A DNA stretch of 64,000 nucleotides from Bacteriovorax sp. (GCA_014378525.1 JACMNL010000026.1:1-64000), one strand, 5' to 3'. Shown: positions 1-45,555, counted from the first letter of the stretch. Numbers and translations are program-made. Notes: generated by a model from the letters alone, not told the origin.

Positions 1-21
1 CCCTTTTGATGTAAGTCTCAT
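1..21 (-). CDS. Partial 5' end of a probable Rrf2/IscR-family transcriptional regulator (first 7 codons MRLTSKG only)
   Basis: Minus strand reads GGAGGAAGACCA-ATG AGA CTT ACA TCA AAA GGG: strong SD then MRLTSKG, the typical Rrf2/IscR N-terminus. Truncated by the window edge. Confidence 0.45.
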
Positions 22-384
22 TGGTCTTCCTCCATAAAAAATCCAATTGATCGTAACTAAAACTTTGAGAGATTAAATTGTCGAGAGATGCGTGTGTCTG
101 TCTACTTTAAGAAGAGCTAATCCTTGCCCGTCTCCTAACCTTTGTGATCTAATTCTCTTCTCAAAGAATCAATCTAACAATAATAGTATGACGTCTGGGA
201 AACGGAGAAGTCAACAACCTATTTTACAGTTTTATTGGTAAGGTATTGATATTAAGGTAATTTAAAGCGTTAAGATCGGGTGATTCCCGAATAAGTCCGA
301 TGGTTTAGGTCACTTGATTCGATGCAATTTATTGATGCAAAAATAATTTATCGGAGTGTTTTAATCGGAAGAATTTGCCTAGTA

Positions 385-810
385 TCAGACGATTTTTGTC
401 AGAAGAAAATTGCGAGAATTGTTCTCATTGATTTCAATTTTTAATTGATAGTATTTAAACTCATCACCAATAATTCTTTGAAGCTGATTAAGATATGGCA
501 TCCCCCATTCAATGAGAAAATAATCTTTCTCCTCTAAATACATCGGTATTTCCAGATGTATCAACTCTTCCTTTTTTTCTATTCTATAAAGATCAGCATG
601 CAGAAGATTGTCGACTTCATTGATGATTGAATACGTTGGAGAACTCGTTTCTTTTCTATCGAGAAAAATTTTCGCGAACGTCGTTTTACCTGCGCCAACC
701 ACTCCATCGAGAATGATCACACTTGGAGGTTCAATAACCTCTTTCATCTCATTGGCAATATTGCCCAGATCTGATTCTAAAACTTTTTTCCAGGCGCGAA
801 CTAAACTCAT
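385..810 (-). CDS. tsaE: tRNA threonylcarbamoyladenosine biosynthesis ATPase TsaE
   Basis: Small P-loop protein with GVVGAGKTTFAK, SSPTYSIINEV, HADLYRIE and LIEWG motifs typical of TsaE. Confidence 0.88.
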   Translation of the reverse strand: MSLVRAWKKVLESDLGNIANEMKEVIEPPSVIILDGVVGAGKTTFAKIFLDRKETSSPTYSIINEVDNLLHADLYRIEKKEELIHLEIPMYLEEKDYFLIEWGMPYLNQLQRIIGDEFKYYQLKIEINENNSRNFLLTKIV

Positions 811-825
811 TGTGACCTTTCTTTT

Positions 826-1581
826 TTATTTTAGAGGATGAGCTTCAAAAACAGTTTTTAGATTCTTCACTGTATTTGAAAGGCCGTTAAAAAGAGCATG
901 GCAGATAATCCAGTGGCCGATATTATACTCTTCGAAAATTTTTGATTCTAAAAGCGGTACTACAGATTCATCTGTTAAACCGTGACCGGCATGAGTCGCA
1001 ATTTTACGAGTCGCTAAAAACTCTTTTGCTGCTCTGTATTGCTCGATGAACTTACTGACGTCATCACCATTGGCAAAAACGCGCGCATACTCACCTGTGT
1101 GAACTTCGACAGCGTCAATATTTAATTGTGATGCTCTGATAAGCACTTCAATTTTTGCTTCAAGAAATAATGATATTTTTACATCTTTAATTGAGCTCTT
1201 TAATTTTTTAACAGCTTCTTCAATGCGAATAAAGTTGGCGTCGTCCAGTAAATCAAGTCCGCCTTCTGTCGTTTTTTCCTGACGTTTTTCAGGGACTAAA
1301 CATATCCATTCCGGAGTTGAAGCAATGGCAATCTCCACGATCTCAGGGTCTACACCCATCTCAAGATTGAGAGGTTTTCCGAATCGTTTTGTCACAAGAC
1401 GAACAGTTTCCACATCAGTGTCCTGAATATGTCTTCTGTCTTCACGAAGGTGAATTGTAATCTGATCAGCACCGTTTAATAACGACACTTGAGCGGCATC
1501 AACTACACTTGGATAATCTTCTCCGCGCGCTTGCCTTAAAGTCGCCACGTGGTCAATATTTACGCCTAAACGAGGTACCAT
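826..1581 (-). CDS. pdxJ: Pyridoxine 5'-phosphate synthase
   Basis: N-terminus MVPRLGVNIDHVATLRQARG plus ITIHLREDRRHIQD and HAGHGL; classic PdxJ. Confidence 0.96.
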   Translation of the reverse strand: MVPRLGVNIDHVATLRQARGEDYPSVVDAAQVSLLNGADQITIHLREDRRHIQDTDVETVRLVTKRFGKPLNLEMGVDPEIVEIAIASTPEWICLVPEKRQEKTTEGGLDLLDDANFIRIEEAVKKLKSSIKDVKISLFLEAKIEVLIRASQLNIDAVEVHTGEYARVFANGDDVSKFIEQYRAAKEFLATRKIATHAGHGLTDESVVPLLESKIFEEYNIGHWIICHALFNGLSNTVKNLKTVFEAHPLK

Positions 1582-1589
1582 TAGAACTC

Positions 1590-2957
1590 CTAACCAATTT
1601 CTTTTGTTACGACTTGAATTAATCGATTACATTCTGATTCAACTAACTCCGCATTGTCACCTTCAACCATGACACGTAGAAGTGGCTCAGTGCCTGAGTA
1701 ACGAAGAAGGACACGGCCTTTGCCATGCATTTTCTTCTCTGCTTCTTTTGTAGCGTCTTCAATGGCCTTCACTGTTTCCAGAGGCGGTTTATTTTTTACC
1801 ACAACATTTTTAATAAATTGTGGAAACAATTCAATCTCACTCACAAGATCTTTAAGCGACATATTAAAATACTTCATCGCTTCAATAACTTTTAATCCAC
1901 CGAGTGATCCATCCCCTGTCGTTGAATGTTTGCTGAAAATAATATGCCCAGATGGCTCTCCACCCAGGATACAGTTATTCGCACGCATATACTCGATAAT
2001 GTATCTGTCACCCACTTTAGTTCTGTAAAAATTTAATCCAAGAGCTTTAATATAAAGCTCAAGACCTAAATTCGACATGACAGTTCCGACAACTGTATCG
2101 CCTTTTTTAAGTTCACCACGGGCAAGCATTAATTTTGCAAACAGCCCTATAAGTTTATCACCATCTACTACAGTTCCCTCTTGATCGATAACAGAAACTC
2201 TATCGCCGTCTCCATCGATACAAATACCGATGTCCGCTCTGTATTTTAAAACTTCAGCACGTGCTGCTTCAGGGTGAAGAGAACCGCATGCTTTGTTGAT
2301 GTTTTCCCCGTTCGGACTAATTCCGATAGAAAAAACTTCAGCGCCCAGTTCATGAAAAATCATCGGCGTTACTTTGTAACCAGCACCATTCGCACAGTCT
2401 AAGACAATTCTCATTCCATCCAGATCGTAATCATGCCCAAGCGCAGATTTAACCTGAACAATATATCGTCCGTAAACTTCTTTAAGTCTTTCAGCATTTC
2501 CCAACTGACCTGCGTATTTCACCGGCATTAAATCTGGATTTAGAATTAATTTTTCCAGTTCAAGTTCTATCGCATCCGGAAGTTTATTTCCTTTACCGTC
2601 GAAAATTTTAATCCCGTTATCCTGAAAATGATTGTGAGAAGCGGAGATCATAACTCCGGCATCTGCACGCATAGAGTGAGTCACGAATGCCACACCTGGT
2701 GTAGGCAGAGGTCCGGTTAATATAACCTCTCCCCCTTGAGAACAGACACCTGAAGCAAAGGCCATCTCGAGCATATAACAAGAAAGGCGCGTATCCTTAC
2801 CAACGATGATGATAGGTTTTGTATTGTTAGGATTGATTGATTGAAAATGGAAAGTCACTGCTCTTCCCAATGCCGTTGCAATTTCTGCAGTCATTGGATA
2901 AGCGTTGGCCTTACCGCGAATTCCGTCCGTTCCGAAAAGTTTTCTCTCCGTCGTCAT
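1590..2957 (-). CDS. glmM: Phosphoglucosamine mutase
   Basis: KLFGTDGIRGKAN, catalytic MISASHNHFQDNGIK, DGDGDRV, GGEPSGH, RYSGTEPLLRVM. Confidence 0.97.
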   Translation of the reverse strand: MTTERKLFGTDGIRGKANAYPMTAEIATALGRAVTFHFQSINPNNTKPIIIVGKDTRLSCYMLEMAFASGVCSQGGEVILTGPLPTPGVAFVTHSMRADAGVMISASHNHFQDNGIKIFDGKGNKLPDAIELELEKLILNPDLMPVKYAGQLGNAERLKEVYGRYIVQVKSALGHDYDLDGMRIVLDCANGAGYKVTPMIFHELGAEVFSIGISPNGENINKACGSLHPEAARAEVLKYRADIGICIDGDGDRVSVIDQEGTVVDGDKLIGLFAKLMLARGELKKGDTVVGTVMSNLGLELYIKALGLNFYRTKVGDRYIIEYMRANNCILGGEPSGHIIFSKHSTTGDGSLGGLKVIEAMKYFNMSLKDLVSEIELFPQFIKNVVVKNKPPLETVKAIEDATKEAEKKMHGKGRVLLRYSGTEPLLRVMVEGDNAELVESECNRLIQVVTKEIG

Positions 2958-2959
2958 AC

Positions 2960-3643
2960 TTATTCCTTTTTAATATCGGCCCTTTTAGGGATAGTCAGTT
3001 GTACTTTATATTTTAATCTTACTCTAGGATTTTCTTCAAATGATAAACGCGGGTCAATTTCGTCCAGTGGAACAGTAATCGTTCCTTCTTCCTTATCAAT
3101 ATTTGATAAATTTACTGGATTAGTATCAATGCGCGACAATTTTTTTATCACATCAATCGGGCCCTTGATCATGATGTTTTGGGGATCAACACTTACTTCT
3201 TTAAATTTTTTATCGTAACCCATATTACCGATGTAGGTCACATGAACCGGAAGCTCCATCATCACCATACGGTCGATTTCAATGTTCGCTTCGCGTGGTC
3301 TCATCTCTAAAATATCCACGCCGAAAGGTACCGCAATTTGTGAAGGATGATAAAGCACTTTAAAATTTTTCCCGAATTTTTTGTAATACGGATTTAAATC
3401 CACAGTCAGCTTTTCTTTATTCGAAAAAACATTTCCAATAAATGCTTTTGATCCTTTCAGTTTCAGAGTCAATTCTCTGTCTGCAAGACTTGCCACTGCA
3501 AAGCCCTTAGGGACAATAAACTGAATCGTGATTTTTTTTTCAATTTCTACCGGCTCAGAATTCAAGACGTAAAACCATAACGACACTGCAAAAAAGATCG
3601 CAATGATTTTTAAAGAATGTCTTTGGGCCTTTTCTAATTTCAA
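2960..3643 (-). CDS. YbbR-like (CdaR-like) membrane-anchored protein
   Basis: N-terminal TM (IIAIFFAVSLWFYVLNSEP), YbbR-like repeats, located between cdaA and glmM as in other bacteria. Confidence 0.8.
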   Translation of the reverse strand: MKLEKAQRHSLKIIAIFFAVSLWFYVLNSEPVEIEKKITIQFIVPKGFAVASLADRELTLKLKGSKAFIGNVFSNKEKLTVDLNPYYKKFGKNFKVLYHPSQIAVPFGVDILEMRPREANIEIDRMVMMELPVHVTYIGNMGYDKKFKEVSVDPQNIMIKGPIDVIKKLSRIDTNPVNLSNIDKEEGTITVPLDEIDPRLSFEENPRVRLKYKVQLTIPKRADIKKE

Positions 3644-4455
3644 CGAACGATGTCCTTTGTCTTGATCGGTCTAAGTGCACTGTCCAGACTTTCATTGCTC
3701 CAGATGTGACGAAGATACTGGCCAAGTTCTTTTTCAGACTTGCACAGATAAAAGATTCCCTCTACACATAGATTAATCTTACCACTTTCTTCAGAACAAG
3801 TAATAACTAGTGCATCGGTAACTTCTGTCAGCCCCAGGGCCGCTCTGTGGCGGGTACCAAGGTGTCGCTCAATATCGAAATTTTTTGAAAGCGGAAGGAA
3901 ACACCCCGCTGCAGTTAACTTAGAGTTTTGCAAAATGATCGCACCGTCGTGAAGAGAAGAACTCGATTCGAAGATCGAATAAATAATATCCGAATGGATT
4001 CTAGAGTCCAGACGTGTGCCTGTGTTAATATAGTTGAGCAAACCATGCGTACGTTCAATAACAATCAGAGCGCCAATTTTCTCTCGCGAAAGAGCACCGC
4101 AGGCCTCGACGATTTCATCAATTTCAAAATCGTGTTCGTCTTTTGAAAATACTGTCAGAATATTTCTTTTTGTTCCTACAGATGCCAGGGCACTTCTGAA
4201 CTGGTCCTGAAACAAAACGACGACGATGATAAAAAATGAATCAAAAAAATGAGCAAGTACCCAGTTCAGTGAATAAAGCTTGAAGGTAATCCCCAGCCAG
4301 AAAAGACCAAACAGGAATCCAAGGCCCACAATCATTTGTGCGGCCTTAGTCCCTCTTACAATTAAAAGTAATTGATAAATGAGAATAGCAACGATCAGGA
4401 TATCTATGAAATCTTTGATATTGAGATGATTAAAAAATGGGCTTAGAAAAGACAT
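3640..4455 (-). CDS. cdaA: Diadenylate cyclase (c-di-AMP synthase), CdaA type
   Basis: N-terminal TM helices followed by DAC domain: GALIVIERTHGL, LHDGAIIL (DGA motif), GTRHRAALG (RHR motif). Confidence 0.93.
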   Translation of the reverse strand: MSFLSPFFNHLNIKDFIDILIVAILIYQLLLIVRGTKAAQMIVGLGFLFGLFWLGITFKLYSLNWVLAHFFDSFFIIVVVLFQDQFRSALASVGTKRNILTVFSKDEHDFEIDEIVEACGALSREKIGALIVIERTHGLLNYINTGTRLDSRIHSDIIYSIFESSSSLHDGAIILQNSKLTAAGCFLPLSKNFDIERHLGTRHRAALGLTEVTDALVITCSEESGKINLCVEGIFYLCKSEKELGQYLRHIWSNESLDSALRPIKTKDIVR

Positions 4456-4467
4456 GAGTCTATCCTA

Positions 4468-6438
4468 CTAAGCTGCACTTAAAAATTCATCATCTTCTTT
4501 CATAAATCTTAAACGTTCTTCTTCAGAAAGGTTCAGCGATTTTAAAATCTCTGTACTCATCAGGAGTTTCTTTCTTAATGCTTCACGGCTGATGCCCATG
4601 GCCTTAGCAGCTTTCGACTTGTTTCCATTACATCTTCTGATTTCTGAATGGATCATTTCGCGCTCAACAAGGGACATACGGTCCTTCAGTGAAATATTGT
4701 GGTCAGAGACGAATGGCAGGTCACCGAACATTCTCTTCTTTTCAGAAAGGTCAACTAAAGGTGATGCTGAATCTTCAATCTCAATATCAGTGATCACGTG
4801 CGCCTTAGGATTGTACATTACAGCACGTTCAACACACAGGCGAAGTTCTTTTATGTTTCCCGGCCAGTCATATTTCTTTAGCTTCTCCATTAATTTTGGA
4901 GCAAACGATTTAAGAAGTAATCCTTCTTTTTTACATTCAGCTTTTAAGAAATAATCGCAAAGCATATCGATATCATCTCCACGGCGGCGTAACGGCTCCA
5001 TGAAAACTGTCGCTTTTGAAATGTATTCATAAAGCTCGCGGTCGAACTCTCCCGTAGCTACTAATACTCCAAGGTCTCTTGTTGTCGTTGCAACGATACG
5101 AACGTCCAGCGCAAATTTTGTATCCGGAATGTGACGGCTCTTAAAAACGTCCATCAGCATTTTCTGGTTTTTCATTGAAAGGGCCCAAACTTCATGGAGC
5201 TGAACAGTTCCGCCCATGCAAGTAATAAGCTTGCATATACTTTCATCAGGGCCGAAGAGCATTGCTCCCACTCCGTCCTGATCTTTTGAAGCACAGTCGA
5301 TAACTTCAAATGCTTTTAATCCACGCTGCCCTTCAACGTGAAGAATTTTTGAATAAAGAGATTTACCTACACCGCGCTCTCCGTGAATTAATACCGGCGC
5401 CTCGATATCTTTTAGTTTCACGATTGTACTTCTTAAAGAAGCTACGTGAGGAACTTTTCCGATAAGTGCATTTTTTCTGTCAAAAGGATTCGAAAATCTT
5501 CTGACAAGTGACTTATCCGACATTGGATTAAAATTGTAAAATACAGAAGAAAAAATCAACGATAAAACTTTCATCGTCTTTTCATCTTCAGTAGAAAATC
5601 TGTCGTCGTTTCTCTTGTTTAAAACTTCGATTACACCAATGATTTTATCTTCACGGTTGTGAATCGGGTGACAGATAATTGATTTAGTCTCAAAACCAAA
5701 TTTCATATCAAACGCTCCATTAAAGCGCGAGCTATCATGAATTGTATCGATGTTCAGAGCTACACCTGTTGTAAAAACAGATCCGGCAATCCCTACGCGA
5801 TAATCGAATTTCAATTGTTCTTTTCTGATCCCCAATGCACAAACGGCCTCAAGCTCGTTTGTTTCGGGGTTAATTAAAAATAATGAAGCTCTTTGAGCAT
5901 TTAAAATTCTGATCACTTCATCCAGCATCGATTCAATGAACCCTTCTTTATCACCAAAGTGAGTGATGTCTTTAAAGAGTGATAATAAAAGTGAGAAGAT
6001 CTCAAATCCATCTGTCGCTTTTGTGTAGCGTTCTTTAATGGCAGAATCAATAAGGCAGTTTTTTAGTCTTTCAGATGAAAAACCTAAAATATAATGCTCC
6101 AGGAATTTTGCAATCCCCTTTTCTTCTTCAATTTCAATTCCGTAAATAATTTTCTGGTCATCCATCGTCTGTGAAAATGCACGCACAACTTTTCCTGTTA
6201 GGTCCATGTGATGTTTTTTAAACTGTAATGAAATGGTAATTTCACGTCCGACAGAAATTCTCTCTGCTGTGGCAAAACCCAAACCAGTTAAACTGATATC
6301 GATCAATTTAGCATCATCAATATATTCTAGCGGCCCCTTGTCTCTCGAAATTTGTACGAGAAATCTAAGGTCATCTGCCTCTTCAACAGGAATTCTGAAT
6401 GATTGGTAAAACTTAAATTCAGAAAAACTTGCTAACAT
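4468..6438 (-). CDS. PilZ-GAF-AAA+(NtrC-like, degenerate)-Fis HTH regulator
   Basis: N-terminal PilZ-like DISLTGLGF (DxSxxG); GAF region (ICHPIHNREDKIIGVIEVLNKRND); Walker A GERGVGKS; AAA+ C-part DVRIVATTTRDL, PLRRRGDDIDML, YDWPGNIKELR; C-terminal Fis HTH NGNKSKAAKAMGISREALRKKL. Confidence 0.85.
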   Translation of the reverse strand: MLASFSEFKFYQSFRIPVEEADDLRFLVQISRDKGPLEYIDDAKLIDISLTGLGFATAERISVGREITISLQFKKHHMDLTGKVVRAFSQTMDDQKIIYGIEIEEEKGIAKFLEHYILGFSSERLKNCLIDSAIKERYTKATDGFEIFSLLLSLFKDITHFGDKEGFIESMLDEVIRILNAQRASLFLINPETNELEAVCALGIRKEQLKFDYRVGIAGSVFTTGVALNIDTIHDSSRFNGAFDMKFGFETKSIICHPIHNREDKIIGVIEVLNKRNDDRFSTEDEKTMKVLSLIFSSVFYNFNPMSDKSLVRRFSNPFDRKNALIGKVPHVASLRSTIVKLKDIEAPVLIHGERGVGKSLYSKILHVEGQRGLKAFEVIDCASKDQDGVGAMLFGPDESICKLITCMGGTVQLHEVWALSMKNQKMLMDVFKSRHIPDTKFALDVRIVATTTRDLGVLVATGEFDRELYEYISKATVFMEPLRRRGDDIDMLCDYFLKAECKKEGLLLKSFAPKLMEKLKKYDWPGNIKELRLCVERAVMYNPKAHVITDIEIEDSASPLVDLSEKKRMFGDLPFVSDHNISLKDRMSLVEREMIHSEIRRCNGNKSKAAKAMGISREALRKKLLMSTEILKSLNLSEEERLRFMKEDDEFLSAA

Positions 6439-6580
6439 AATAGACTCCTAACAGTAAACGTATTCACTCAAGAGTCTTATCGTTCATAAAGATTGAAAAC
6501 TTGAATTTTGTGCCAATTAAAATTTGCACGTCTTGATTTTAAAAACTTAAAATATTGAATTATTTGAAAAGTTGACGGAA

Positions 6581-7642
6581 TTAGTTCGGAACTAAACCTG
6601 GATTATCAGCGGGCTCGTTCTTAAAAGTCTCAGGCGCCTTTGCAACATCCTGACGAAGATTATGAACCACTAATTTATGCATGGCCTCTCTAAAAAGATT
6701 CCAGTACTCAACGCTCTTTCTTGGATCAGATGATGGAAGCTCTAATGTATAAGTCGGAATGTTTCTTTCCTGTCCTGCCCAGTTTCCAAGTGAGCCTGGA
6801 AAAAATGGATAGTCCTTAATGTTGTACCCGGCAGCATCTTTACTCATCTGGATTAGAAGCTCCTGCGCTTTACCTCCATCGAGTCCATTCGTTGCCGAGT
6901 GCTGGGGACCATCATAGTCAAGAAGTGTTAATGGCGAGTGCACAGAAACAATCTTATCCGGGTTAAAACGCTTAATTAAGTTAACCTGGAAAACAACTTC
7001 CGGTTCACTATTAGGTCTCTCACCTGGATTTCTTCGTTTATCTCTTTTGAATTTTGTCAGCCACATCTTGCGTGCTTCGATCTGCCAGTCTTTCGTCGGA
7101 AAATTTCTGTTGGGGTCTATTCCGCGTGCATTCATGCGCGAAGGTTTTGCTTTAAAATAAGAATCCGGATTTACCAATGGTGATACGAGAACAACTTTGT
7201 TGTGGAAGTCTTTTGCTCTTTCCGGATCAGCATAAGCTGTGCGCAGATAGTACATGATATCGAAACAAAATTTCACCGGTGTAATTTCATCACCGTGAAC
7301 ACCACACATAATGATCGTCACATCTTTATCTTTAAAACTTTCTTTGTTCTCATCACTGACGTCGCCGAACACTGTCCACATTAATGGATTACCTAAAACA
7401 GAATTTCTGTAATGGCTCCATTTAAAATCAGCGCACTCACTTTTGTCCCAGCCGTATTTCTTAAAACTTTTTTCAAGTTTTTCGCAGTAAGATTTAATTT
7501 CGGAAGTCATACCATTTTCAACAGCTGGTGGAGCTGCAGGTGCTACTGGTGCAGCAGCAGGGGCCGACTGCGCAAACAAGACTACATTTACTGAAAACAG
7601 TAAGGTGATACTAAATAGAATTAATACATGACGAGGTTTCAT
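6581..7642 (-). CDS. Secreted M14-family zinc carboxypeptidase / murein-peptide amidase-like protein
   Basis: Signal peptide plus Pro/Ala-rich linker; metal-ligand-like GVHGDEITP and SVHSPL; NARGIDPNRNFP motif characteristic of M14/MpaA-like enzymes. Confidence 0.78.
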   Translation of the reverse strand: MKPRHVLILFSITLLFSVNVVLFAQSAPAAAPVAPAAPPAVENGMTSEIKSYCEKLEKSFKKYGWDKSECADFKWSHYRNSVLGNPLMWTVFGDVSDENKESFKDKDVTIIMCGVHGDEITPVKFCFDIMYYLRTAYADPERAKDFHNKVVLVSPLVNPDSYFKAKPSRMNARGIDPNRNFPTKDWQIEARKMWLTKFKRDKRRNPGERPNSEPEVVFQVNLIKRFNPDKIVSVHSPLTLLDYDGPQHSATNGLDGGKAQELLIQMSKDAAGYNIKDYPFFPGSLGNWAGQERNIPTYTLELPSSDPRKSVEYWNLFREAMHKLVVHNLRQDVAKAPETFKNEPADNPGLVPN

Positions 7643-7695
7643 TATGAGTGTTATTATACCTTTTAAAGAAGAAAGAATTCAATGCAAATAAGTGA

Positions 7696-8550
7696 GTGTC
7701 TATGCCAAAAAACAGCATAATTATTGCCAGTCTTAATCCGACTCTTTATACAACCAGGCGTTTGCTTGAAGAAGCGGCAAAACTAAAACACTCTGCTATC
7801 TATTTAAACCCGTACCAACATCAGTTAACGCAGCAGAAAATTAAACTGGCCGGACACTATTTTCATCGCACTACCGGAACGAACTACGATGATTTCGATC
7901 TGGTCGTTTCAAAATACCATGAGATTCATGGAATGAAAGTGACTAACCCAATCGATCGTTTGAAAATTTTCCGTTCAAAAGATCAGCAGTCACTTTTTTT
8001 TACGGAACACAATATTCCTGCGATTAAAACACTTCTTTATCGTGGTGAACTCAGTCAATCGATAGAATCTGAGATATCAAAACTGTCGAAAGATAAAAAA
8101 TATATTCTAAAAATGAACCGTGGCAATCAGGGCATCGGTGTCAATTACCTAGAAAGCGAAAAATCACTTCACAGTGTGCTTGAAACTTTCTATGCAATGA
8201 AAGACCAGCGCTTTTTAATCCAGCCCTACATCTCTCACAAAAAAGAATGGCGCCTATTCATCATTAAAGGTGACATCATTGCATGCATTGAAAAAACTCT
8301 TAACAAAGAAGATTTTCGTGGAAATGCCAAACGATCAAGTGGAAAACTTTTAAAAAAAATTCCAACGGAACTTCAGGCAATTGCCATCAACGCCTTTAAC
8401 TTCAGTGGTCTTGATTATGCAGGAATTGATTTGTTGATATCTGATAAAGGTGAAATTTTGATTCTTGAAATTAATCCCATTCCAGGATTCGAGCAGGCAG
8501 AAGAACTCTCGGGCAAGAACATTGCCCGGGAGTTGTTAACTGTATTATAA
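7696..8550 (+). CDS. RimK-like ATP-grasp ligase
   Basis: ATP-grasp features KYILKMNRGNQGIGV, DYAGIDLLISDKGEILILEINPIPGFE. Confidence 0.78.
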   Translation: MSMPKNSIIIASLNPTLYTTRRLLEEAAKLKHSAIYLNPYQHQLTQQKIKLAGHYFHRTTGTNYDDFDLVVSKYHEIHGMKVTNPIDRLKIFRSKDQQSLFFTEHNIPAIKTLLYRGELSQSIESEISKLSKDKKYILKMNRGNQGIGVNYLESEKSLHSVLETFYAMKDQRFLIQPYISHKKEWRLFIIKGDIIACIEKTLNKEDFRGNAKRSSGKLLKKIPTELQAIAINAFNFSGLDYAGIDLLISDKGEILILEINPIPGFEQAEELSGKNIARELLTVL

Positions 8551-10032
8551 AAGGTATCCAAAAATATTCGAAGGAATTTTCACTATATAGTAAAGTAGCT
8601 TCTTTCCAAAACCTGTCTGGTAAAACTCTGCATCTTTAATCGCTTTTGCTGAATCCAGGTGAATACTCTCATCCATACGTGATTTAATATCACCTTGAAC
8701 CTGTGCGGCCAGTTCAGGGTTGTTCTCACAAGAAATGATCATCTCTGCATTGAAGTTAGCTGAGCGAGGGTCAACATTATAAGTTCCAATCACAACATCT
8801 TTCTGATCGAAGACAAAAGTCTTGGCGTGTACACCAAAACGAGCGTCACCTGAAAGATTCTCTACTACTTCATAAGACTTTGGTTTTTGTCCTTTGAATA
8901 TATATGAATCAAGTCCTTTCTTTAACCATTCATTTGCAATACTGTCGAAAGCTGCATAAACATAGATAGCATCTGTGGAGTTTAAGCTATTTGTTAAAAG
9001 CTTTACATCAACCTTTTTATTGAAAGCATTTTCGAGGGCCCCTGCTAATTCATCGTTCACGATAAAATATGGTGAATCGATGATGATCTGTTTTTCTGCG
9101 TTTTTAATTTTATCAAAGATGAAGTGCTTGATCACCCGGTCTTCTTTTCTGTTTTTAGTTCCGATAGACGGGTATTCAGAATGGAAACCTAACTGATCAC
9201 AAGTTCCACGGTATTCTTTTTTAAGTTCAGTGTCACCTTTGTTTCTGATAGAAGTTTCAACTGAAGAATCCATTGAATCATTGATAAAACTTTTTGCAGC
9301 TGCAACTTTTTTATTCCAGTTCTTAAGGTCGTAGTTGAAAGCATTATCGTCGTTATTAGCATCGCCACGTCTGTATTTTGCATCGTCAGCTTCAGGCATT
9401 TTTTCTCTGGCAACACGTACGCTTTTTTCAGCAACAAAAGTTTCATTAAAAGTTGTCTCTATTGATTTTACCAGTTCACCTTCAATATGAAGTTCGCGGT
9501 CCATAAAGTTATAGTCTTTGCTTAAATCGAAATATTCGTCACCGATGTTTCTTCCGCCGGTAATAATTTCGTTACCATCGATCAGAAGAAGTTTTCTATG
9601 GTTTCTATATTGTCCTGAAAATAAATTTAGAGTTGAAGTTATATTGAAGTACTTAACTTCGATGCCTTCTTTTTCAAGTTCGTGAGTATAAAATGGAGAC
9701 AAGTCGTTTTTCACCATAAAATAATCAAGAAGAATTCTAACCTTTACACCCTGACGAGCTTTTTTGACTAAAGCTTGTGTAAAAAGTTTTGCTGATTTAT
9801 CAGTTCTATAAATGAAGTATTCAACTTCAATAGATTTTTCTGCTCTATCAATCATCTGCAAACGTTCTTCCAATGAAGCGAGTCCGTGATTTAATAAAAT
9901 AAGTTCGTGAGGAGCTGCACTTTTCACACTAAAAGGATTCAATGCTTCCTGAGCAAATGTTCCATGAGAAAACATCGCTACAGATAATAATGAAAGAGTC
10001 ATAACCCATTTAGGTGCGTTCATTGTCTTCAT
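8545..10032 (-). CDS. Exported phospholipase D family protein (cardiolipin synthase/YmdC-like)
   Basis: Signal peptide after MKTMNAPKWVM; two HKD motifs HRKLLLIDGNEIITGGRN and HAKTFVFDQKDVVIGTYNVDPRS. Start chosen at 10032 (GAGG 6 nt upstream); the ORF track extends to 10116. Confidence 0.85.
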   Translation of the reverse strand: MKTMNAPKWVMTLSLLSVAMFSHGTFAQEALNPFSVKSAAPHELILLNHGLASLEERLQMIDRAEKSIEVEYFIYRTDKSAKLFTQALVKKARQGVKVRILLDYFMVKNDLSPFYTHELEKEGIEVKYFNITSTLNLFSGQYRNHRKLLLIDGNEIITGGRNIGDEYFDLSKDYNFMDRELHIEGELVKSIETTFNETFVAEKSVRVAREKMPEADDAKYRRGDANNDDNAFNYDLKNWNKKVAAAKSFINDSMDSSVETSIRNKGDTELKKEYRGTCDQLGFHSEYPSIGTKNRKEDRVIKHFIFDKIKNAEKQIIIDSPYFIVNDELAGALENAFNKKVDVKLLTNSLNSTDAIYVYAAFDSIANEWLKKGLDSYIFKGQKPKSYEVVENLSGDARFGVHAKTFVFDQKDVVIGTYNVDPRSANFNAEMIISCENNPELAAQVQGDIKSRMDESIHLDSAKAIKDAEFYQTGFGKKLLYYIVKIPSNIFGYLL

Positions 10033-12307: not shown

Positions 12308-14728
12308 TTAAGCCTCTGCCGGATGAACAACATCCGGAAGTTTGTAGACCATAAAAATTGGAATCAATAAAAACACTGAACCTACAAAGTATGGTGCAGC
12401 TGATCCGCTCTTATAATAAATAACAGCAGCAGCAATCGGCCCTACTACTCTCGCCAGTGCTCCCATTGATCTGAAAATACCAACGCTTCGTCCTTGCTCT
12501 TCAGCTGGAGTATAGAACGTCACGAGTGTTGTTAAACACGGCATGATCATTGATGAACCTATAGCAAGGAAAAATAATCCTGCATAAAGCATCAGTGATG
12601 AATAAGCTATAGCAATTAATAGAAGTCCCGGGATGAGAGAAATCATTCCAATCATGGCCATATTCTTTTCACCAACATCAGCGGCCTTTCTTCTGACAAC
12701 ACCACCCTGAACGAAAGCGATAATGAATCCTATGTAGATGAAGATGTAAGCGTTTTGCATTGATGTATAATTCAATCTTTCAGCAGCTAAAAATGTAAGC
12801 GTGAATTCCATACCGGAAAACGCTGCAAGGAAAGCAAAGTATCCAAGGTTTACTAAATTGATTCCCGGGTAAGGAAGTGGTTTGAAAAGTTTGAAGATGT
12901 TTGCACTTCTTTCAGTTGTCACCAGACCACGTTTCTGAGGCGGTAAACTTTCCTTGAACTTCGTTGAAATCCAGACGGTGTTAAAAATTGAAAGACAAAA
13001 TGCGAATGCGGCCGGAACTGAAAATGGATTGATTCCGTAAGCAACAGACTCGGGATAAATTTTTGTTAAATCAATCAGCGACAAGATCCCACCGAACGCA
13101 GGTCCGACAACAAACCCCAGTGCGAAGGCCACTCCGATGATCGCCATCCCCTTTGATCTGTTTTCTTTTGTAGTCACGTCGGCCACAACAGCTGTGGCCG
13201 TTGAAATGTTACCACCCATGATTCCGTCGATGATTCTTGAAATAATTAAGAGTGTGAATGAGCCGGAGAAGAACCAGATGGCGTAACCAAAGGCCATACC
13301 ACCCATCGAGTAAGAAAGAACCGGCTTTCTTCCGATCTTATCCGAAAGCGCTCCCCAAAGAGGTGCGGCCACGAATTGTAGTCCCGAATAAATAGCACCA
13401 AGCATACCACCGAATAAAACAATTCCTGAAAAAGCATTCGTTGAGTTCGCAGTATAATTTGAAATCGACTGAATCGATCCAAAAATAGCCTGAAGAAATA
13501 CGTTATGTGAATCAACTGTTAAATAATGTTTTGCTAGACTTGGAAACAATGGAAAAATAATTGAAAAGCCGACTAGATCCAGAAAGATTGTCAGGGCCAC
13601 GATGAAAATTGAAGACTTTGCTTCAGAAGTTAATGGAGTTGATTTCTGTTTTAATTCTGCCTTACTCATAACTTCATATTCCTTATAATCATTTTTTTCT
13701 AACGTATAAAAATCATTTTCCCGGGTATCACTATCAGCTAAACATTGATTCTCAACAAATCCTGCAAAGTCCCTGCACCATTTTTCATCATCGTTCAGAC
13801 AAGGAATGAAATGGATATCTCCACCATTTTCATTTGCAGTATGCTTTAACTCTACTCCCAATTCGTCCAGCGTTTCCAAACAGTCCGCTACGAAGCTCGG
13901 TGAATAAACGGCAAGATTTTTTTCTCCTTCCTTCACCAGCTTAACAACTGTGTTTTCAGTATAAGGAGTCAGCCATTCTTCAGAACCAAATCTCGACTGA
14001 AAAGTCACAGTGACTTTCGAGTGGTCAATATTTTTCAAATGGTCTCGGATTAAATAAAATGTTTCATAACAGTGTAGATAATAAGCATCTTCTTTTTGCA
14101 CGACTCTTCTTTTTTGGATCCCGTGAAAAGTTAAAAGCAGGCGGTCGATTGAAACTCCACTCGTTTTAAATTTTTCCAGGTATAAATCAATCTGGCGTGC
14201 ACTGTTATCAATGAATGCTTTTGATGTATGAAAATTTGTAACGATGCTGATCTCAGGAATTTTGACTCTCCCCTTAATCACATGTGCCAGCCCGTCAATC
14301 CCTGAAGCAATCGTTGATTCAGAGTATTGCGGGAACATTGGAATGACTTTTAGTTTAGTCGCTGGAGCTGGATCCTTCTCCCAGTTGTCCCAGACCTCAC
14401 TCACGCGGGGTTCAGACAGCAAAAAAGCATGGTTCACTTCTACCTTAGGAGACTTCAGGTTGGTTCTCACTTTGTCAGTAAAGGCCTTAGTGATCGTCAG
14501 TAGCGGAAAGCTCTTTCCGTCCCAGATACGGGCATATAGCATAGCAGATTTTTTTGGTCTAAAAGGCAATACGAAGCAATTTAAGATGATTTTCCAGACG
14601 ATGGGATTAATATCAACCACTCGCGGGTCTGCCAGAAACTCTTTTAGAAATGCCCGGACATCTCTTACTTTGGGGCTTTTGGGAGAACCCAATTGCACAA
14701 AAACAACTTTTGTTTTTCCTTCACTCAC
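12308..14728 (-). CDS. hemH: Ferrochelatase fused in frame to MFS transporter
   Basis: Residues ~1-345: VQLGSP, TFHGIQKR, FQSRFGSEEWLTPYT, FVADCLETLDEL (ferrochelatase). Residues ~370-806: MFS 12-TM with GALSDKIGRKPVLS and DGIMGGN. No stop between. Confidence 0.85.
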   Translation of the reverse strand: MSEGKTKVVFVQLGSPKSPKVRDVRAFLKEFLADPRVVDINPIVWKIILNCFVLPFRPKKSAMLYARIWDGKSFPLLTITKAFTDKVRTNLKSPKVEVNHAFLLSEPRVSEVWDNWEKDPAPATKLKVIPMFPQYSESTIASGIDGLAHVIKGRVKIPEISIVTNFHTSKAFIDNSARQIDLYLEKFKTSGVSIDRLLLTFHGIQKRRVVQKEDAYYLHCYETFYLIRDHLKNIDHSKVTVTFQSRFGSEEWLTPYTENTVVKLVKEGEKNLAVYSPSFVADCLETLDELGVELKHTANENGGDIHFIPCLNDDEKWCRDFAGFVENQCLADSDTRENDFYTLEKNDYKEYEVMSKAELKQKSTPLTSEAKSSIFIVALTIFLDLVGFSIIFPLFPSLAKHYLTVDSHNVFLQAIFGSIQSISNYTANSTNAFSGIVLFGGMLGAIYSGLQFVAAPLWGALSDKIGRKPVLSYSMGGMAFGYAIWFFSGSFTLLIISRIIDGIMGGNISTATAVVADVTTKENRSKGMAIIGVAFALGFVVGPAFGGILSLIDLTKIYPESVAYGINPFSVPAAFAFCLSIFNTVWISTKFKESLPPQKRGLVTTERSANIFKLFKPLPYPGINLVNLGYFAFLAAFSGMEFTLTFLAAERLNYTSMQNAYIFIYIGFIIAFVQGGVVRRKAADVGEKNMAMIGMISLIPGLLLIAIAYSSLMLYAGLFFLAIGSSMIMPCLTTLVTFYTPAEEQGRSVGIFRSMGALARVVGPIAAAVIYYKSGSAAPYFVGSVFLLIPIFMVYKLPDVVHPAEA

Positions 14729-21465: not shown

Positions 21466-23742
21466 ATGGATAGTTTTATGGATGTTTTAAGAAAATCATT
21501 AAGTCTCACGGTCGCGCTCAGTTTAATACTGAGTACGATTCCCAAGACTACATTTGCTGATGAACCTCGCCATGAAGTGAAACGAACTCCATTTGCAGTT
21601 GATAAGGATAAAATAAATTTCTGCGAGAGTGCTCCTGTTAAGATGAAAAAACTAAACGAGGCCAATGAACCAAAATTAGCAAAACTTGATGCACTAAAAG
21701 AACAGATCGTAGATTTAAATAGTCAGATGGCACTTCTCAATAGTTTGTCCGCTTTTAAAAATCAATATCAGGGTGGTCTTCAAGAGCTCGCCAATGCTGC
21801 TACTCCCCAAGCAAAATCCGCCAATAAACAACAACAGCTGCAAAACTTAGACAGCATGAAGAAAGTTATCCGCAATGGATTAATTCTGAATGCTGTTGGA
21901 TTACTTTTAAAAAATGGTGATCTTGATAAAGATGATGCTTTTAGCATTGGAACAATTTGTTCAAAAAATTCCGACCAGGAAATTTGTTCTAAAGAAGAAA
22001 AATTTTCAACGATAAAAACGGCCGGACAACCATTAGTTCAACAACAAAGACATTACAGAAGTGCCTGGTGGGACCTGCACCCACTTGATGAAACTCTAAG
22101 ACAAATTAAAGATGCCTACAAAGGCATAAAGGCCGGAAACAGACAGGCCCTGAATGAAAAAATGCAGAAAATCCTGGATTCAATTCCTGCAGATATTGCT
22201 CCCGATGCAATTTTACAAATTCTGGATAAGACCGCTCCAGGTATTACAAAAATTCTTGTTACAGATGTTGCAAAATCAAATCTGTCAAAATGCCTTGATG
22301 AAAAAACAACAGATGATACACGCAAGGCCTGTGATGCTTTATTACCAGCATTGGCACCTAAAATTGATCCGGTTACAAAACAACCTTTGAAAAACTTTCT
22401 TGAGCGCATGAATGAAGAAACATCAAACGCACTAGCTGGAATGGAAGGTTTGAGAGAAGTTATTAATACAACGGCAAAGAGCAATTTTGAAACTCTTCAA
22501 AAAGATATTGAAAACCACGATAGACTTGTGCAGGGTCCAGTACAACTTGCGCAGTCAAAAACAAGCCAGCTACTTCAGAAACCAATGGCCGCTATAACCC
22601 AGACTTCATCAGATATTTCTGAAGCCGCTGATAAAAAAAGAAGACAGGCATCTAAAGTAAGAAATGAACTCGAACAAAGAAAAGTTTATGAGGATGCAGA
22701 TAATGAAATGGCATTTGCCAATTTAGGTATGGCCCAATTATTTTTAAAACCAACCAGTAAGGATATGCCTCAATCAATATACGAGTCTAACAAACTCAAC
22801 TCGGTAAGTTTAAAAAATGCAAAAGCATTACATAAAGAATGGACTGAGAAATGTACAGGAACAACACCTGATCTGACTTTTTGCCAGGAACTATCTCCCG
22901 TCATCGAAAATAATTTAAATAGTATAAAAATAAACTTTGAGACCAAACTGAAAGATCTTCAAAATGAATTATCAAAAGTTACTGAAGGAAATTTTGCAGC
23001 TGTTGAATCGATGAAAAAGTTTGTTGCAGAAAAATATTTACGCTCATGCGTGGCAGATCAGCCGCTTAACTTTTCAACACAAGATTACTCACTCGGAATA
23101 GCTGTCGACGGACATTGTTACCAGTCACAACAAAAATTAAATACACTAACAAACTTAAGCAGTGACGTGAACAATATCATTGCAGAAACCAGATTTGCAC
23201 TCGATCTGAAAAAAGCAGATCAAAATAAAAAGGCCTTTGATGCTGAAGAAATGAGCGGCTTTACAAAAGCATGTGCCACAGAGACCGGTAAAGAATTTCC
23301 TGAAGTTTGTGCTGATGTAAAAAAAGAAGAAGTGGTGACGAGTATCAGAGTTCAGAATGAAGAAGAAGAAAGAGAAGTGAAAGAAAATCGCGTGAATGAT
23401 GATAAAGATTATTGGGTGACATCAAATGGTCATGGTGGTTTCAATAAAGTTTCAAAAAAATCTAATTTAAGAATTATTGGAGAAGGTGTTCTTCCAGTCG
23501 CCCCTCAGATGATTCCGATGTTTTTTGGAAACTATGCCATGAGGGCCAATATCACTTCACTGACTGATCAGGCATTGTATCAAAAGCAGATGCTTTATAA
23601 TTACAATCTCTACAACACTTCTCCATGGTTATATAATTATGGAACTAATGGAGTATTTTCAGGATATGGTAATCCATTTTCAACAACTACCACAGGTACA
23701 ACTACCACAGGTGTGACCAGCACTGCAGGATTTGGCTTCTAG
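21466..23742 (+). CDS. Large secreted hypothetical protein, helical/coiled-coil with low-complexity C-terminus
   Basis: N-terminal signal-like segment LSLTVALSLILSTIPKTTFADEP; long charged helical regions; C-terminal FSTTTTGTTTTGVTSTAGFGF. Confidence 0.75.
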   Translation: MDSFMDVLRKSLSLTVALSLILSTIPKTTFADEPRHEVKRTPFAVDKDKINFCESAPVKMKKLNEANEPKLAKLDALKEQIVDLNSQMALLNSLSAFKNQYQGGLQELANAATPQAKSANKQQQLQNLDSMKKVIRNGLILNAVGLLLKNGDLDKDDAFSIGTICSKNSDQEICSKEEKFSTIKTAGQPLVQQQRHYRSAWWDLHPLDETLRQIKDAYKGIKAGNRQALNEKMQKILDSIPADIAPDAILQILDKTAPGITKILVTDVAKSNLSKCLDEKTTDDTRKACDALLPALAPKIDPVTKQPLKNFLERMNEETSNALAGMEGLREVINTTAKSNFETLQKDIENHDRLVQGPVQLAQSKTSQLLQKPMAAITQTSSDISEAADKKRRQASKVRNELEQRKVYEDADNEMAFANLGMAQLFLKPTSKDMPQSIYESNKLNSVSLKNAKALHKEWTEKCTGTTPDLTFCQELSPVIENNLNSIKINFETKLKDLQNELSKVTEGNFAAVESMKKFVAEKYLRSCVADQPLNFSTQDYSLGIAVDGHCYQSQQKLNTLTNLSSDVNNIIAETRFALDLKKADQNKKAFDAEEMSGFTKACATETGKEFPEVCADVKKEEVVTSIRVQNEEEEREVKENRVNDDKDYWVTSNGHGGFNKVSKKSNLRIIGEGVLPVAPQMIPMFFGNYAMRANITSLTDQALYQKQMLYNYNLYNTSPWLYNYGTNGVFSGYGNPFSTTTTGTTTTGVTSTAGFGF

Positions 23743-23965: not shown

Positions 23966-26900
23966 ATGAAGACCCTTCAAAATATTCTATTCTTGTTTGC
24001 TGTCACTTTGTTTTTACAAAGTTGTGTGGCCAGCAGTCCATCGAATTCAAGAAAATCTCTTTCATCATCAGTTAAAACTACAACGACAACTCCAGTCTCT
24101 CCTGTGTTTGCAGCAGACGAACTTCTCTACTGGTTTAGTTCTGCCAAAGTCACAGGAACAATTACTGTTAACAAAAATAGTGACAGTATTATTTATCTTC
24201 GCGGATCAAATGTTCACACTTTTTTAGCAAGTACAGATTCAAGTTCGTTTGAGTACTATCGCAAAACTTATTGTGTGGTTGGAACTTTTGGCGGAACAAA
24301 TAAACAATTGCGCGTGAGAGCTGTACCTATCTATGTTACAAACTACTCAACAAATACAATTGAAAGACTTTTAAGAATTGATATTCCGAGTAGTGCAGAA
24401 AATGCATCGACATGTGGATACTCAACAATTGATGGAGTTGCGCCAGGCTCTGCAGCCTACACTCTCAAAGATGTTTGTACATCGTGTTTGAGTGGATCAC
24501 TTACGACAACTTCAGTTGCTCCATCTACAGAGCCAGGATTAAGACTTTTTGTAAGTAACTCAACAGCAGCAACGTTGACTCAAATTCCAAAGACACAAAT
24601 TACATTCAGTTCAGTTGCCTTAAAAATTGATCTTACTTCGAGTTCATCAGATACAACAAACTCTTGTACCAATAGCTCATGTTCTTCAAAAGGGTTTGAC
24701 TGTTGTATTTCCGGCCAGTGTGTAAAAGACGCCAGTGAAAAATCGAACGCGAGTCTGGATCCACAGTACTCACAGGCAAAAAGTGATTACGCTACTAATC
24801 CGTTGAGCTTCATCAACTATCCAAACATCTATAATATTTGTACAAATATTTCTCATACTCCTCCTGTTACAATACCTCCTACGACGACAACTCCGGTGAG
24901 TGATGCGCAGACGAGAGTAAACACTTATCTTGCAGACTATACTTGTATTTATAAAGTAGTGACGACTAATCCTAGTCAATACTCTCTTTGTCTTCCTGCT
25001 GCCAATGAAGCTCAATACCTGGCCACAAAGAAAAAACTGGCAATTGCCTGTGGGTGTCCTTCAGGATACGACGATACAACTCGTGCAATCAGATGTCCTG
25101 ATTGGGGAGTCCGTCCGCTTTATAAATCTTCTGTAGAAACAATTACAAACATCGTAGACTTTTATTGTTACACTCCGACTCCTGCAAATCCGATCGGAAC
25201 AATTACAAACTTAAATGTAACTGTACCAAGCAGAAGTGCTCCTCACCGCTTTTATTCTACAGGCGGAAAAAATTATGACGACCTTACTGGAGTTGCTGCA
25301 AGTGTAATTCAGGAAGGCGATGATTTTTACTATTTAGATGATGCAAATAAGGCCTCTCCAGTTAATGGTTCTTACAACGTAAATTCTGTTATTGGACGGA
25401 TCAATGTCGGTCTCTCTCAAGCTCAACCTGCAAAGATGGTAGGAATTGAGTTAGGGAAAACTTATATCTTATCTACGACCAGCGGATATTTCACTCCATG
25501 TTCTAAATGTGCAAAAGACAGCTGGTTCCAGACTTTCACTGCTCATCCGGCCACTTCAGGTGGTAACGGGCTTCGTGCCTCAGGATTTACAACAGCACGT
25601 GACAGCTACTCTTCTAATGCGACTCTTGGTAACTATGAAGATACAAAATTTGGACGCGCTTGTTACCTTCCGGTGACGATGCTTCCATGGTCTCACAAAA
25701 AAGAAGCGACTGCTCAGCTGCAACGTATGGACCGTTTAAAAACTCAGGCCGCTTATTACATCAACGGATACCAGAGAGACTGGTTTGGATTTAATAAAGG
25801 TGCATTGATCGGATCATTCGATGGTGTGCAATGGTTTGCGATTGGTTCAGGAAGAAGAATTACAGCAACATCAACAAAATTATATCTTGCTTACAACAGC
25901 TCTTTCCTCGATCTTGCCGATCGTACAGATACAATCGTCAATATCATTCCGGATCTTTCAGCAAGTACTGCACCTGATTTTGATTATGATCCTGAATTAG
26001 GAATTGCAGATAAATCACAAAACATGGCCGGCAGTTGTCAGCAGTATCATCAGTGTGAAACTGATACTGATTGCGTGACTCAACTTGGGTGGGAATACTC
26101 TTGTGCAGATATGTCTCAATTAAAAACTCACTGGCCGGTTTACGATACTGATTCAAAAGAAATCGCTAACCAGGAAAAAACCGGAACTCTTTTTGAAATT
26201 TTAGGTGCAACAGCAACTGTCGGTGGTACTGGAAAACGCTGTGTATACCGTGGTGCAGGTGCCCCATGTCTGCGTACCTTTACTGACCTTGACGGTAACT
26301 TCAATCAGAAAGCACTAACATGTGCTCCAAACTTTTATTGCGCTTCATTGAATACAAGTAAATTTAACGATGCACTTGTTCGCTCTCCAAATGAATTTGA
26401 CGATATATTATTCGGGATGGATGCAAACGTTTTAGGCCGTCCGTTAAACTATGTAACAGCAAATAAACCTCTTACTGCAGATATCATCACCAATATAAAA
26501 TACAATGGTGCTTCGGATTCAATGGGACTTTCAGCATCTCAGGTTGATGACATGGGAATTTGTCGTCCAGGTAAAGCAATCAATGGTACGGCAGCTTACA
26601 ATCATTCAAATCCAGATACTGCAAAACGCTCAGATTATATTTCTCAAGTAGGGTCATGTGGATCAGCTATCACAGGGGCCGGTACAAGCTTAACAGCGAG
26701 AACAGTTTCATGCCCTGCTATTGGAGTAGATTTAAATTATGCTGATCATGCTGCTGCAAATATCAAGATATTATCAGCGATGCAAAACAGCTGTGGTGGT
26801 GAAGCAAAAGATACAGGAACGTTTGCTTCTGCGTTCGCCAACATCGAAGGTGGCTCACTTGCTCTGTTAAGAAATATTACACAACCAGTTTTAGCGGCCG

Positions 26901-43590: not shown

Positions 43591-45555
43591 TTAAGTAATT
43601 TCTTTCATCTTCTTCCCGAAGCGTTTCGTCAAATCCTCACCAGTTCTGAAAATGATGTGAATTGGAGTATTGTCCAGGGTGAATTCTTTTCTCAGACCAT
43701 TCTTCAGATAATTTTTGTAGTTATCTGGAATATCTGTTGAAAGGTTGGCGAAGAATAAAAATGTCGGAGGATTCGATTTTAACATCGAAGCGTACTTCAC
43801 TTTTAATCTCTTACCAGCTTTTTTGATGGCAACCGGGTTTGTCTCTAACAACTGGTGAACGTAACGGTTCAGTTTACCTGTACCGATGTTGCTGTTTCTG
43901 ATGATAACCGTTTTTTTGATCACTTCACGAAGTCTACCAATATGCTTGTTGTACTTCGCTGAGATCGGAATCAGGTCACAGTGATTCAGCCACGGAACTG
44001 TTGCTCTTAAATCAGCAATCCATTCTTTTTTCGCTTCTTCATCAGGAAGTGTTTCTTTTAAAAGATCCACTTTGTTTAAACAAACAATAACCGACTTCCC
44101 TTTTTCCAGAGCGATATCTAAAAGACGTCTGTCCTGGTGAGAAATACCAATTGTTGCATCGATCATGAAAATAATAATATCAGATTCAGTAATACAACGA
44201 AGTGAGCGGTAAACCGACTGCTGCTCAATAAATCCTTCAACAGATTTCTGGCGTCTGATCCCTGCTGTATCGACAATGTGCATTGAGCGCCATTGTGATC
44301 CCTCCTCTTCTTTTTCTTTTTCGATCAATGCCATCGCTGCTAAATACTCTTCAGAGTAAGTGTTCGCGGCCATCGGTTCAACATCACTCTCAAGGTCAAC
44401 TTCAATGTCCAGTTCTTCACTGTCATCAACATCAAAATCCACATCATCTTCAACTGCAAACACAGTATCAAACATCAATTCTTCTGTTTTTTGAATTTCT
44501 GCATCTGATAAAGCTTCATCGTAATCGATTTCGCTGTCATCTTCTTCCAGTTCAGTCTCTGAAAATAATGGAGTCTCTGGACTCTCATAATGATCTTCAT
44601 CATAAAGAGGAGTTCCGCGAGTCCCTTCTTCTTCAAGGTTGTAACTCATAGAAAGTGATTCATAAACATCAGGGTTATTTTTTCTGAACTCTTCATATTG
44701 CTGCATTAACAGGTTGTCTGTTTTTGCAAACGCCACGTCACTATCAAGTTTCGCTGCATCTTTACCAAAGAAGATATCAAAAAATCCTTCAATTGGATCA
44801 ACTGTTGTTCCCGGAATGTCTGATACAAGAGCTCTCTCAGAACCTAATAAAAGATTCAGAAGAGTTGATTTACCAGCGTTAGGAGCACCAATAAGTGCCA
44901 GACGTGAAGCAACCTTCTCTCTCGGTGTAACACCTTTTTGAAGATTCGACATTTCGTCTTTCTGTGTTTTTTCAAACTTAATAAGTTCCTGGTGAAGTGC
45001 TGTCTTCAAGTCAAGAAGTCCAAGTCCGTGTTCAGCAGAAACTTTAAATAACTGCTCTTCACCGATACCAAGGTTGTAGAACTCTAATTCTTCCCCTTCC
45101 TGTTTATCAGTGTCGTACTTGTTTACTAAAACCCAGAATTGTTTTTTCTGTGCACGGATATAATCTGAAATCGTTTTATCAAAAGGAAGAATTCCTTCTC
45201 TTGAATCTACAACGAATAAAATTAAATCCGATTCTCTGATCGCTTGTTTCGCCTGATCAGTCATAATATTAAAAAACTTGTTCATGATCTGGTCGTATTT
45301 CTTCGGAACATTCTCTTCGATTTTTTCAGGATAAAATCCACCTGTATCTACAAGAATAGCGTCGCGGGCACCTTCGTGAGCAACTTCTTCAAATGTTGCG
45401 ATACCATAGTGGCGGTCGCGGGTTACACCTGGTTTATCATGAGTAATCGCTTTATGAGCTTTCTTCATCAGACGGTTAAATAGTGAGCTTTTACCTACAT
45501 TGGGTCTTCCGATCAGGGAGACAACCATCGTGCGGTGGTATTCTTTCGTTTCCAT
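43591..45555 (-). CDS. der: Ribosome-biogenesis GTPase Der with a large acidic insertion in G domain 2
   Basis: Tandem G domains: [12 protein letters not shown] / DTGGF / NKYD and [12 protein letters not shown] / DTAGIRR / NKVD; C-terminal KH-like domain. Start placed at 45555 (TAATG overlap with era stop); ORF track extends to 45570. Confidence 0.94.

Follow-up and report, generated by a model that had tools for sequence, protein, structure and literature searches.

What is the function of a transcriptional regulator that is encoded immediately upstream of the gene for cyclic di-AMP (c-di-AMP) synthesis? We addressed this question for a 64,000-nucleotide (nt) stretch of Bacteriovorax sp. (the window; coordinates are those of the whole stretch), in which a gene for a protein with PilZ, GAF, AAA+, and Fis-type helix-turn-helix (HTH) domains directly precedes cdaA, the diadenylate cyclase gene. 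A sequence-only reading of this DNA had the regulator open reading frame (ORF) end at 4468 and cdaA begin at 4455 on the same strand, with 12 nt in between, and had placed ybbR and glmM downstream of cdaA; the coordinates and gene calls are confirmed, the latter two by PF07949 and TIGR01455 (Table 1). It also proposed that a single transcript may couple cyclic di-GMP (c-di-GMP) sensing to c-di-AMP synthesis. We consider it somewhat more probable than its negation that the regulator is an autoregulated, sigma54-independent attack-phase transcription factor of NtrC-class descent, sharing its timing with c-di-AMP synthesis. The regulator occurs in nearly all members of a single order of predatory bacteria, was not found in the other Bdellovibrionota searched, and bears the marks of attack-phase genes. 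It is therefore a candidate for lineage-specific control of the predatory cycle, in a group for which few such factors are known.

The Pfam domains of the regulator are PilZ, GAF, Sigma54_activat, AAA_lid_14, and HTH_8. An AAA+ fold with a Fis-type HTH is supported by Pfam, by sequence matches in the PDB, and by Foldseek, and the AlphaFold2 (AF2) model of the protein has a mean predicted local distance difference test score (pLDDT) of 80.9. Among the 57 orthologues used for all motif and conservation figures, mean conservation is 0.87 in the HTH, 0.78 in the GAF domain, 0.56 in the AAA+ domain, and 0.47 in the C-terminal tail. The GAFTGA loop, which contacts sigma54, is absent from all 57, and its deletion is visible against ZraR. 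The Walker A motif GxxGxGK is invariant; the Walker B aspartate is replaced by H, R, K, S, and other residues, so that the DE used by sigma54 activators for ATP hydrolysis is not retained. Loss of GAFTGA is specific, since the same genome encodes sigma54 and a second activator (L312) with intact GSFTGA and DE.

Several relatives have taken a comparable route: TyrR, DhaR, and HupR lack GAFTGA and are sigma70 dependent, and VpsR is also without it (PMC3162934). As in these proteins, the NtrC-type AAA+ domain, the Fis HTH, and Walker A are kept, and GAFTGA has been lost from a sigma54-activator ancestry. The regulator differs in its PilZ-plus-GAF sensor, where VpsR, TyrR, DhaR, and HupR use other sensor domains, in its degraded Walker B, in its confinement to one family, and in its position beside cdaA and glmM. 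The flagellar master regulators FleQ and FlrC share the AAA+ fold (by Foldseek), the Fis HTH, and a likely tie to the motile phase. However, FleQ uses its AAA+ domain to bind c-di-GMP and stands at the head of the flagellar hierarchy, whereas the regulator has a separate PilZ domain and is encoded downstream of a sigma28-type promoter; the dyad described below is missing from canonical fliA.

Alignment of the DNA upstream of the regulator gene within the genus revealed a conserved TGCAA-N8-TGGCA block. Its family form is TGCCA-N8-TGGCA, followed 6 to 8 base pairs (bp) on by TAAAGTTT-N11/12-NCCGATAA, which reads as a sigma28 (FliA)-type promoter. Scored against the Escherichia coli FliA consensus TAAAGTTT-N11-GCCGATAA with a threshold of 12/16, such promoters occur upstream of the regulator in 26 of 42 genera and upstream of cdaA in 9 of 28, compared to 0 or 1 for the other operon genes and 1.3% of shuffled cdaA upstream DNA. 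FliA itself is encoded in this genome (281 bits) and in 117 of 125 genomes of the order. With at most one mismatch, the dyad is found upstream of the regulator in 21 of 42 genera versus 0.25% of shuffles, upstream of cdaA in 0 of 28 genera, and never upstream of glmM; it is missing from 29 of 30 canonical fliA loci. Across 125 genomes, the composite of dyad and sigma28 pattern matches 29 places, of which 22 are immediately in front of the regulator gene; the reversed control has 1 match. We ruled out that the dyad is the terminator of the upstream peptidase gene, since its frequency is independent of neighbor orientation (9/18 with a divergent neighbor, 19/40 with a same-strand one) and its distance to the -35 box is nearly fixed across the family.

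In Bdellovibrio, the attack-phase consensus TTAAG-N16-CCGATA has been attributed to FliA (PMC3627812). The -35/-10 pair of the regulator promoter and its spacing resemble this consensus of Bdellovibrio bacteriovorus, but the TGCCA-N8-TGGCA dyad 6 to 8 bp upstream of the -35 box is an addition that is almost exclusive to the regulator gene. Separately, in genus g36 (L218, L226, L232, L271-L289), a TGCCA-N8-TGGCA dyad lies approximately 110 nt ahead of the gene for a second FliA-like sigma factor. We do not claim this site as an operator: its left half overlaps the upstream stop codon, no sigma28 box follows it, and it looks like a terminator.

The sequences themselves show the domain architecture, which motifs are lost and which are conserved, the conserved promoter and dyad, the order of the genes, and the retention of the regulator without cdaA, whereas the timing of expression, the DNA target, the ligands, and the role of ATP are inferred. 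With a sigma28-type promoter in front of it, the regulator gene would probably be turned on by FliA when the cells are motile, in the attack phase. The AAA+ domain is probably an ATP-binding scaffold for oligomerization and, with GAFTGA gone, would be unable to remodel sigma54. The Fis-type HTH is predicted to bind DNA, and its most likely targets include the TGCCA-N8-TGGCA dyad in front of its own gene, on which the protein would act as an oligomer to control its own transcription. The GAF domain, and perhaps PilZ, may sense small nucleotide ligands that tune the regulator. For cdaA, its own sigma28-type promoters would give expression in the same phase in many relatives, and read-through from the regulator promoter may do so in the genus of the window, which would make the two genes neighbors with common attack-phase timing. 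The data also point to sigma28 control of c-di-AMP synthesis, of which a limited literature search found no description. The dyad-plus-sigma28 promoter provides a defined DNA target for experiments, and the altered PilZ domain and NKFDE-type GAF domain suggest specific ligands to test.

Some observations weigh against this reading. No regulon beyond the regulator's own promoter was found with the 125-genome composite pattern or with the exact dyad in 12 genomes, where 41 sites, many of them intragenic, formed no common target class. Autoregulation is argued from the exclusivity of the dyad, which another factor could bind. At up to one mismatch, only half of the genera have a recognizable dyad, as do 3 of the 17 loci that lack cdaA, and the -10 box of the window, AACGATAA, matches less well than that of many relatives. 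Finally, the prediction of attack-phase expression is carried over from Bdellovibrio, a member of a different family.

The distribution of the regulator was surveyed in 129 genomes of the order, all from one family, to which the window also belongs (Bacteriovoracaceae/Halobacteriovoraceae metagenome-assembled genomes [MAGs], several of them incomplete). Orthologues with 43 to 98% identity are present in 114 genomes, recorded as Bacteriovorax, Bacteriovoracaceae, and Halobacteriovorax(aceae) MAGs and strains, and among the 77 family genomes with a completeness of 90% or more, a profile of the PilZ and GAF half detected the regulator in 76. Profile and full-length searches of other families of the phylum found no PilZ-plus-GAF regulator, with matches to the GAF part alone. 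Judged by these searches, the regulator is therefore lineage specific and nearly universal where present. The sequence-only reading had looked to conservation of the adjacency with cdaA across Bdellovibrionota; it proved to be confined to the one family, because the genomes searched outside it have no PilZ-GAF regulator. A divergently transcribed pair of PilZ-GAF-AAA+ paralogues, approximately 30% identical to the regulator and also lacking GAFTGA, was seen at L290 (G043:C1), and pairs of this type also occur in G002, G003, G042, G044-G046, and G119.

Within the order, cdaA was detected in 95 of the 129 genomes. The regulator lies immediately upstream on the same strand in 59 of these, spanning 16 genera (<350 nt between matches), within 2 kilobases (kb) in 25, and within 5 kb in 5, so the adjacency is not due to chance. 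Among the outlying genomes, two have the genes 13 and 22 kb apart, three have them on separate contigs, and one carries cdaA on a short contig without the regulator. The typical order in 60 loci is regulator, cdaA, ybbR, glmM, pdxJ, nnrDE, tsaE, an Rrf2 regulator, and a cysteine desulfurase; in the window it is regulator, cdaA, ybbR, glmM, pdxJ, and tsaE, all on the same strand. On its upstream side the regulator has repeatedly acquired different neighbors, but its linkage to cdaA persists across many genera, and glmM-pdxJ-nnr-tsaE is retained in nearly all loci. The window holds a complete cdaA-cdaR(ybbR)-glmM module in the known gene order. It departs from the known module in the family-specific regulator ahead and in pdxJ, (nnrDE), and tsaE behind, and in several lineages cdaA-ybbR is gone while glmM stays.

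This linkage is old and strong, and it is broken in two ways. An opposite-strand UPF0047 gene, sometimes with further genes, splits the regulator from cdaA in ten genera (g3, g12, g13, g16, g17, g19, g20, g35, g41, and g42). In addition, 20 genomes carry the regulator without a detected cdaA, and ybbR is also missing in the loci read. In most of these loci glmM is the next gene after the regulator, 21 to 193 nt away, and other genes intervene in several (L099, L103, L115-L117). Although some MAGs are incomplete, the loci from which cdaA and ybbR are missing are intact in other respects. On a regulator-plus-GlmM tree, parsimony requires five switches in cdaA state (about five losses), of which strongly supported branches force at least two. 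Because the regulator is kept without cdaA and where UPF0047 splits the operon, neither co-transcription nor cdaA itself is required for its retention, and c-di-AMP would not be needed either. As observations in their own right, cdaA and ybbR are jointly absent, with regulator and glmM kept, at L099-L109 and L113-L118. A search with the CdaA model detected no diadenylate cyclase in those genomes, which may therefore be without c-di-AMP. The UPF0047 (YjbQ-type) gene sits on the opposite strand at the regulator/cdaA junction of L062, L070-L072, L076-L078, L083, L085, L086, L091, L092, L096, and L098, and also, at the regulator/glmM junction, in L099, L103, and L117, which lack cdaA.

Whether the regulator could respond to c-di-GMP depends on its N-terminal domain, which matches Pfam PF07238 with 30.4 bits (cut-off, 22.5). 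A PDB sequence search found no PilZ relatives and only fold comparison gave matches: the AF2 model of the domain (pLDDT, 85.7) resembles the PilZ domains of BcsA, VCA0042, Alg44, and MrkH by Foldseek, so the predicted fold is PilZ. The sequence-only reading rightly noted that DxSxxG is present as DISLTGLG and that the upstream arginines are off the canonical RxxxR spacing. In the (D/N)xSxxG motif, D47, S49, and G52 are each conserved in at least 56 of 57 orthologues. The RxxxR before the first strand reads [YF]xxxR instead, with Tyr (40 of 57; Tyr11 here) or Phe (15 of 57) in place of the first arginine; R15 is present in 56 of 57, and position 9 is Lys or Arg. Since this first arginine is replaced in 55 of 57 orthologues and RxxxR is retained by four further PilZ proteins encoded in this genome, c-di-GMP binding by the regulator's PilZ domain is doubtful. 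MrkH likewise carries PilZ within a transcription regulator, but it has no GAF, AAA+, or Fis domain, and in the regulator RxxxR is altered.

The GAF domain bears the signature of cyclic-mononucleotide binders. Residues N274, F281, and D285 of its NKFDE motif are conserved in 57 of 57 orthologues, K275 in 56, and E286 in 55, and the closest solved GAF domains are those of CyaB2, PDE2A, and PDE5. NKFDE is conserved in most characterized GAF domains that bind cyclic nucleoside monophosphates (PMC4411481). A single class III cyclase is encoded in the genome, as are two GGDEF proteins. One GGDEF protein (G000:C16:13088-13564, locus L237) has the segment GHLVGTKLL 24 residues before GGDEF, with a Thr that we take to occupy the position of PleD Asp344 (D344). 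A Ser or Thr at the Asp344 position marks Hypr enzymes able to make 3',3'-cyclic GMP-AMP (3',3'-cGAMP) (PMC9140294). It is conceivable, but a long shot, that [YF]xxxR...DxSxxG reads 3',3'-cGAMP, or c-di-AMP from the adjacent CdaA, and that together with a cAMP/cGMP-type GAF domain it would form a two-messenger switch acting on its own gene and on the end of the attack phase.

The coupling originally proposed, in which PilZ senses c-di-GMP and the regulator controls a shared operon and thereby c-di-AMP synthesis, is possible but unlikely, and we do not favor it. The adjacency on which it was built is real and family-wide. The spacer (4456-4467), in which AGGA precedes the cdaA ATG, contains neither a terminator-like nor a sigma70-like site, and because 12 nt leaves no room for a terminator, one transcript is plausible in the genus of the window. 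Near-invariant R15 and DxSxxG, a fold model like that of c-di-GMP-binding PilZ domains, the two GGDEF proteins, and the feedback that a dyad at the operon's upstream promoter would provide are all consistent with it. A specific link is nevertheless unsupported, given the altered RxxxR, the persistence of the regulator in the 20 genomes without cdaA, the opposite-strand gene that breaks the operon in ten genera, and the DNA upstream of cdaA, which in many genera holds a separate promoter but in none the dyad.

The regulator's retention ahead of glmM raises a distinctly unlikely alternative, that its functional partner is glmM and cell wall precursor supply, with the regulator heading a wall and cofactor operon, controlling glmM-pdxJ-tsaE, and cdaA-ybbR being an optional insert. 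Its direct position upstream of glmM in most cdaA-less loci and the nearly constant glmM-pdxJ-nnr-tsaE order fit this arrangement, yet there is no dyad (at most one mismatch) and almost no sigma28 box upstream of glmM, other genes intervene in several of those loci, and the adjacency may reflect merely stable gene order. Such stability taken alone, with the regulator a global factor functionally unconnected to its neighbors and an order inherited from an ancestor, would explain the presence of the adjacency throughout a single family, the repeated insertions at the regulator-cdaA junction, and a regulator that outlives the loss of its neighbor. We regard it as quite improbable: the linkage survives many genera at 43 to 98% regulator identity while upstream genes change repeatedly, and sigma28-type promoters occur at the regulator and cdaA but not at the other operon genes.

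Table 1. Coordinates of the regulator, its domains and promoter elements, and the genes downstream
Feature	Position	Strand	Basis or remarks
Regulator gene, PilZ-GAF-AAA+-Fis, 656 amino acids (aa)	4468..6438	-	ORF call, Pfam, orthologues
PilZ domain, residues 1-125; K9, Y11, R15, D47xS49xxG52	6064..6438	-	PF07238, conservation, AF2, Foldseek
GAF domain, ~residues 140-310; NKFDE = N274 K275 F281 D285 E286	5509..6021	-	PF01590
AAA+ domain and lid, residues 321-549	4792..5478	-	Walker A present; no GAFTGA loop; variable residue in place of Walker B Asp
Fis-type HTH, residues 585-626, with the highest conservation in the protein	4561..4686	-	PF02954
Dyad, candidate operator TGCAA-N8-TGGCA (family form TGCCA-N8-TGGCA)	6511..6528	-	Genus alignment, family counts
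Sigma28-type -35 box TCAAGTTT	6497..6504	-	Upstream alignment, FliA-consensus scoring
Sigma28-type -10 box AACGATAA	6477..6484	-	12 nt after -35 box, 38 nt before ATG
cdaA, diadenylate cyclase CdaA, 271 aa	3640..4455	-	PF02457, PF19293, TIGR00159
ybbR (cdaR), TTG start	2960..3643	-	PF07949; 4-nt overlap with cdaA
glmM, phosphoglucosamine mutase	1590..2957	-	TIGR01455, 545 bits
pdxJ	826..1581	-	PF03740
tsaE	385..810	-	PF02367

CdaA scores 210 bits against its equivalog model TIGR00159 (cut-off, 188.8), and PF19293 marks an N-terminal membrane domain. Predicted sigma70 promoters and terminators across 1-8600 did not exceed those in shuffled DNA, and a search for riboswitches gave zero Rfam matches within the window. 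Elsewhere in the window, two long ORFs of 758 and 1734 aa (21466-23742 and 23966-29170, both + strand) have no Pfam match at an E value of 1e-4. A ferrochelatase-major facilitator superfamily transporter fusion of 806 aa (12308-14728, - strand) recurs in this neighborhood in many relatives. An EngA/Der-like GTPase of 659 aa (43591-45570, - strand) exceeds the usual length and contains three GTPase-family stretches, possibly through an insertion.

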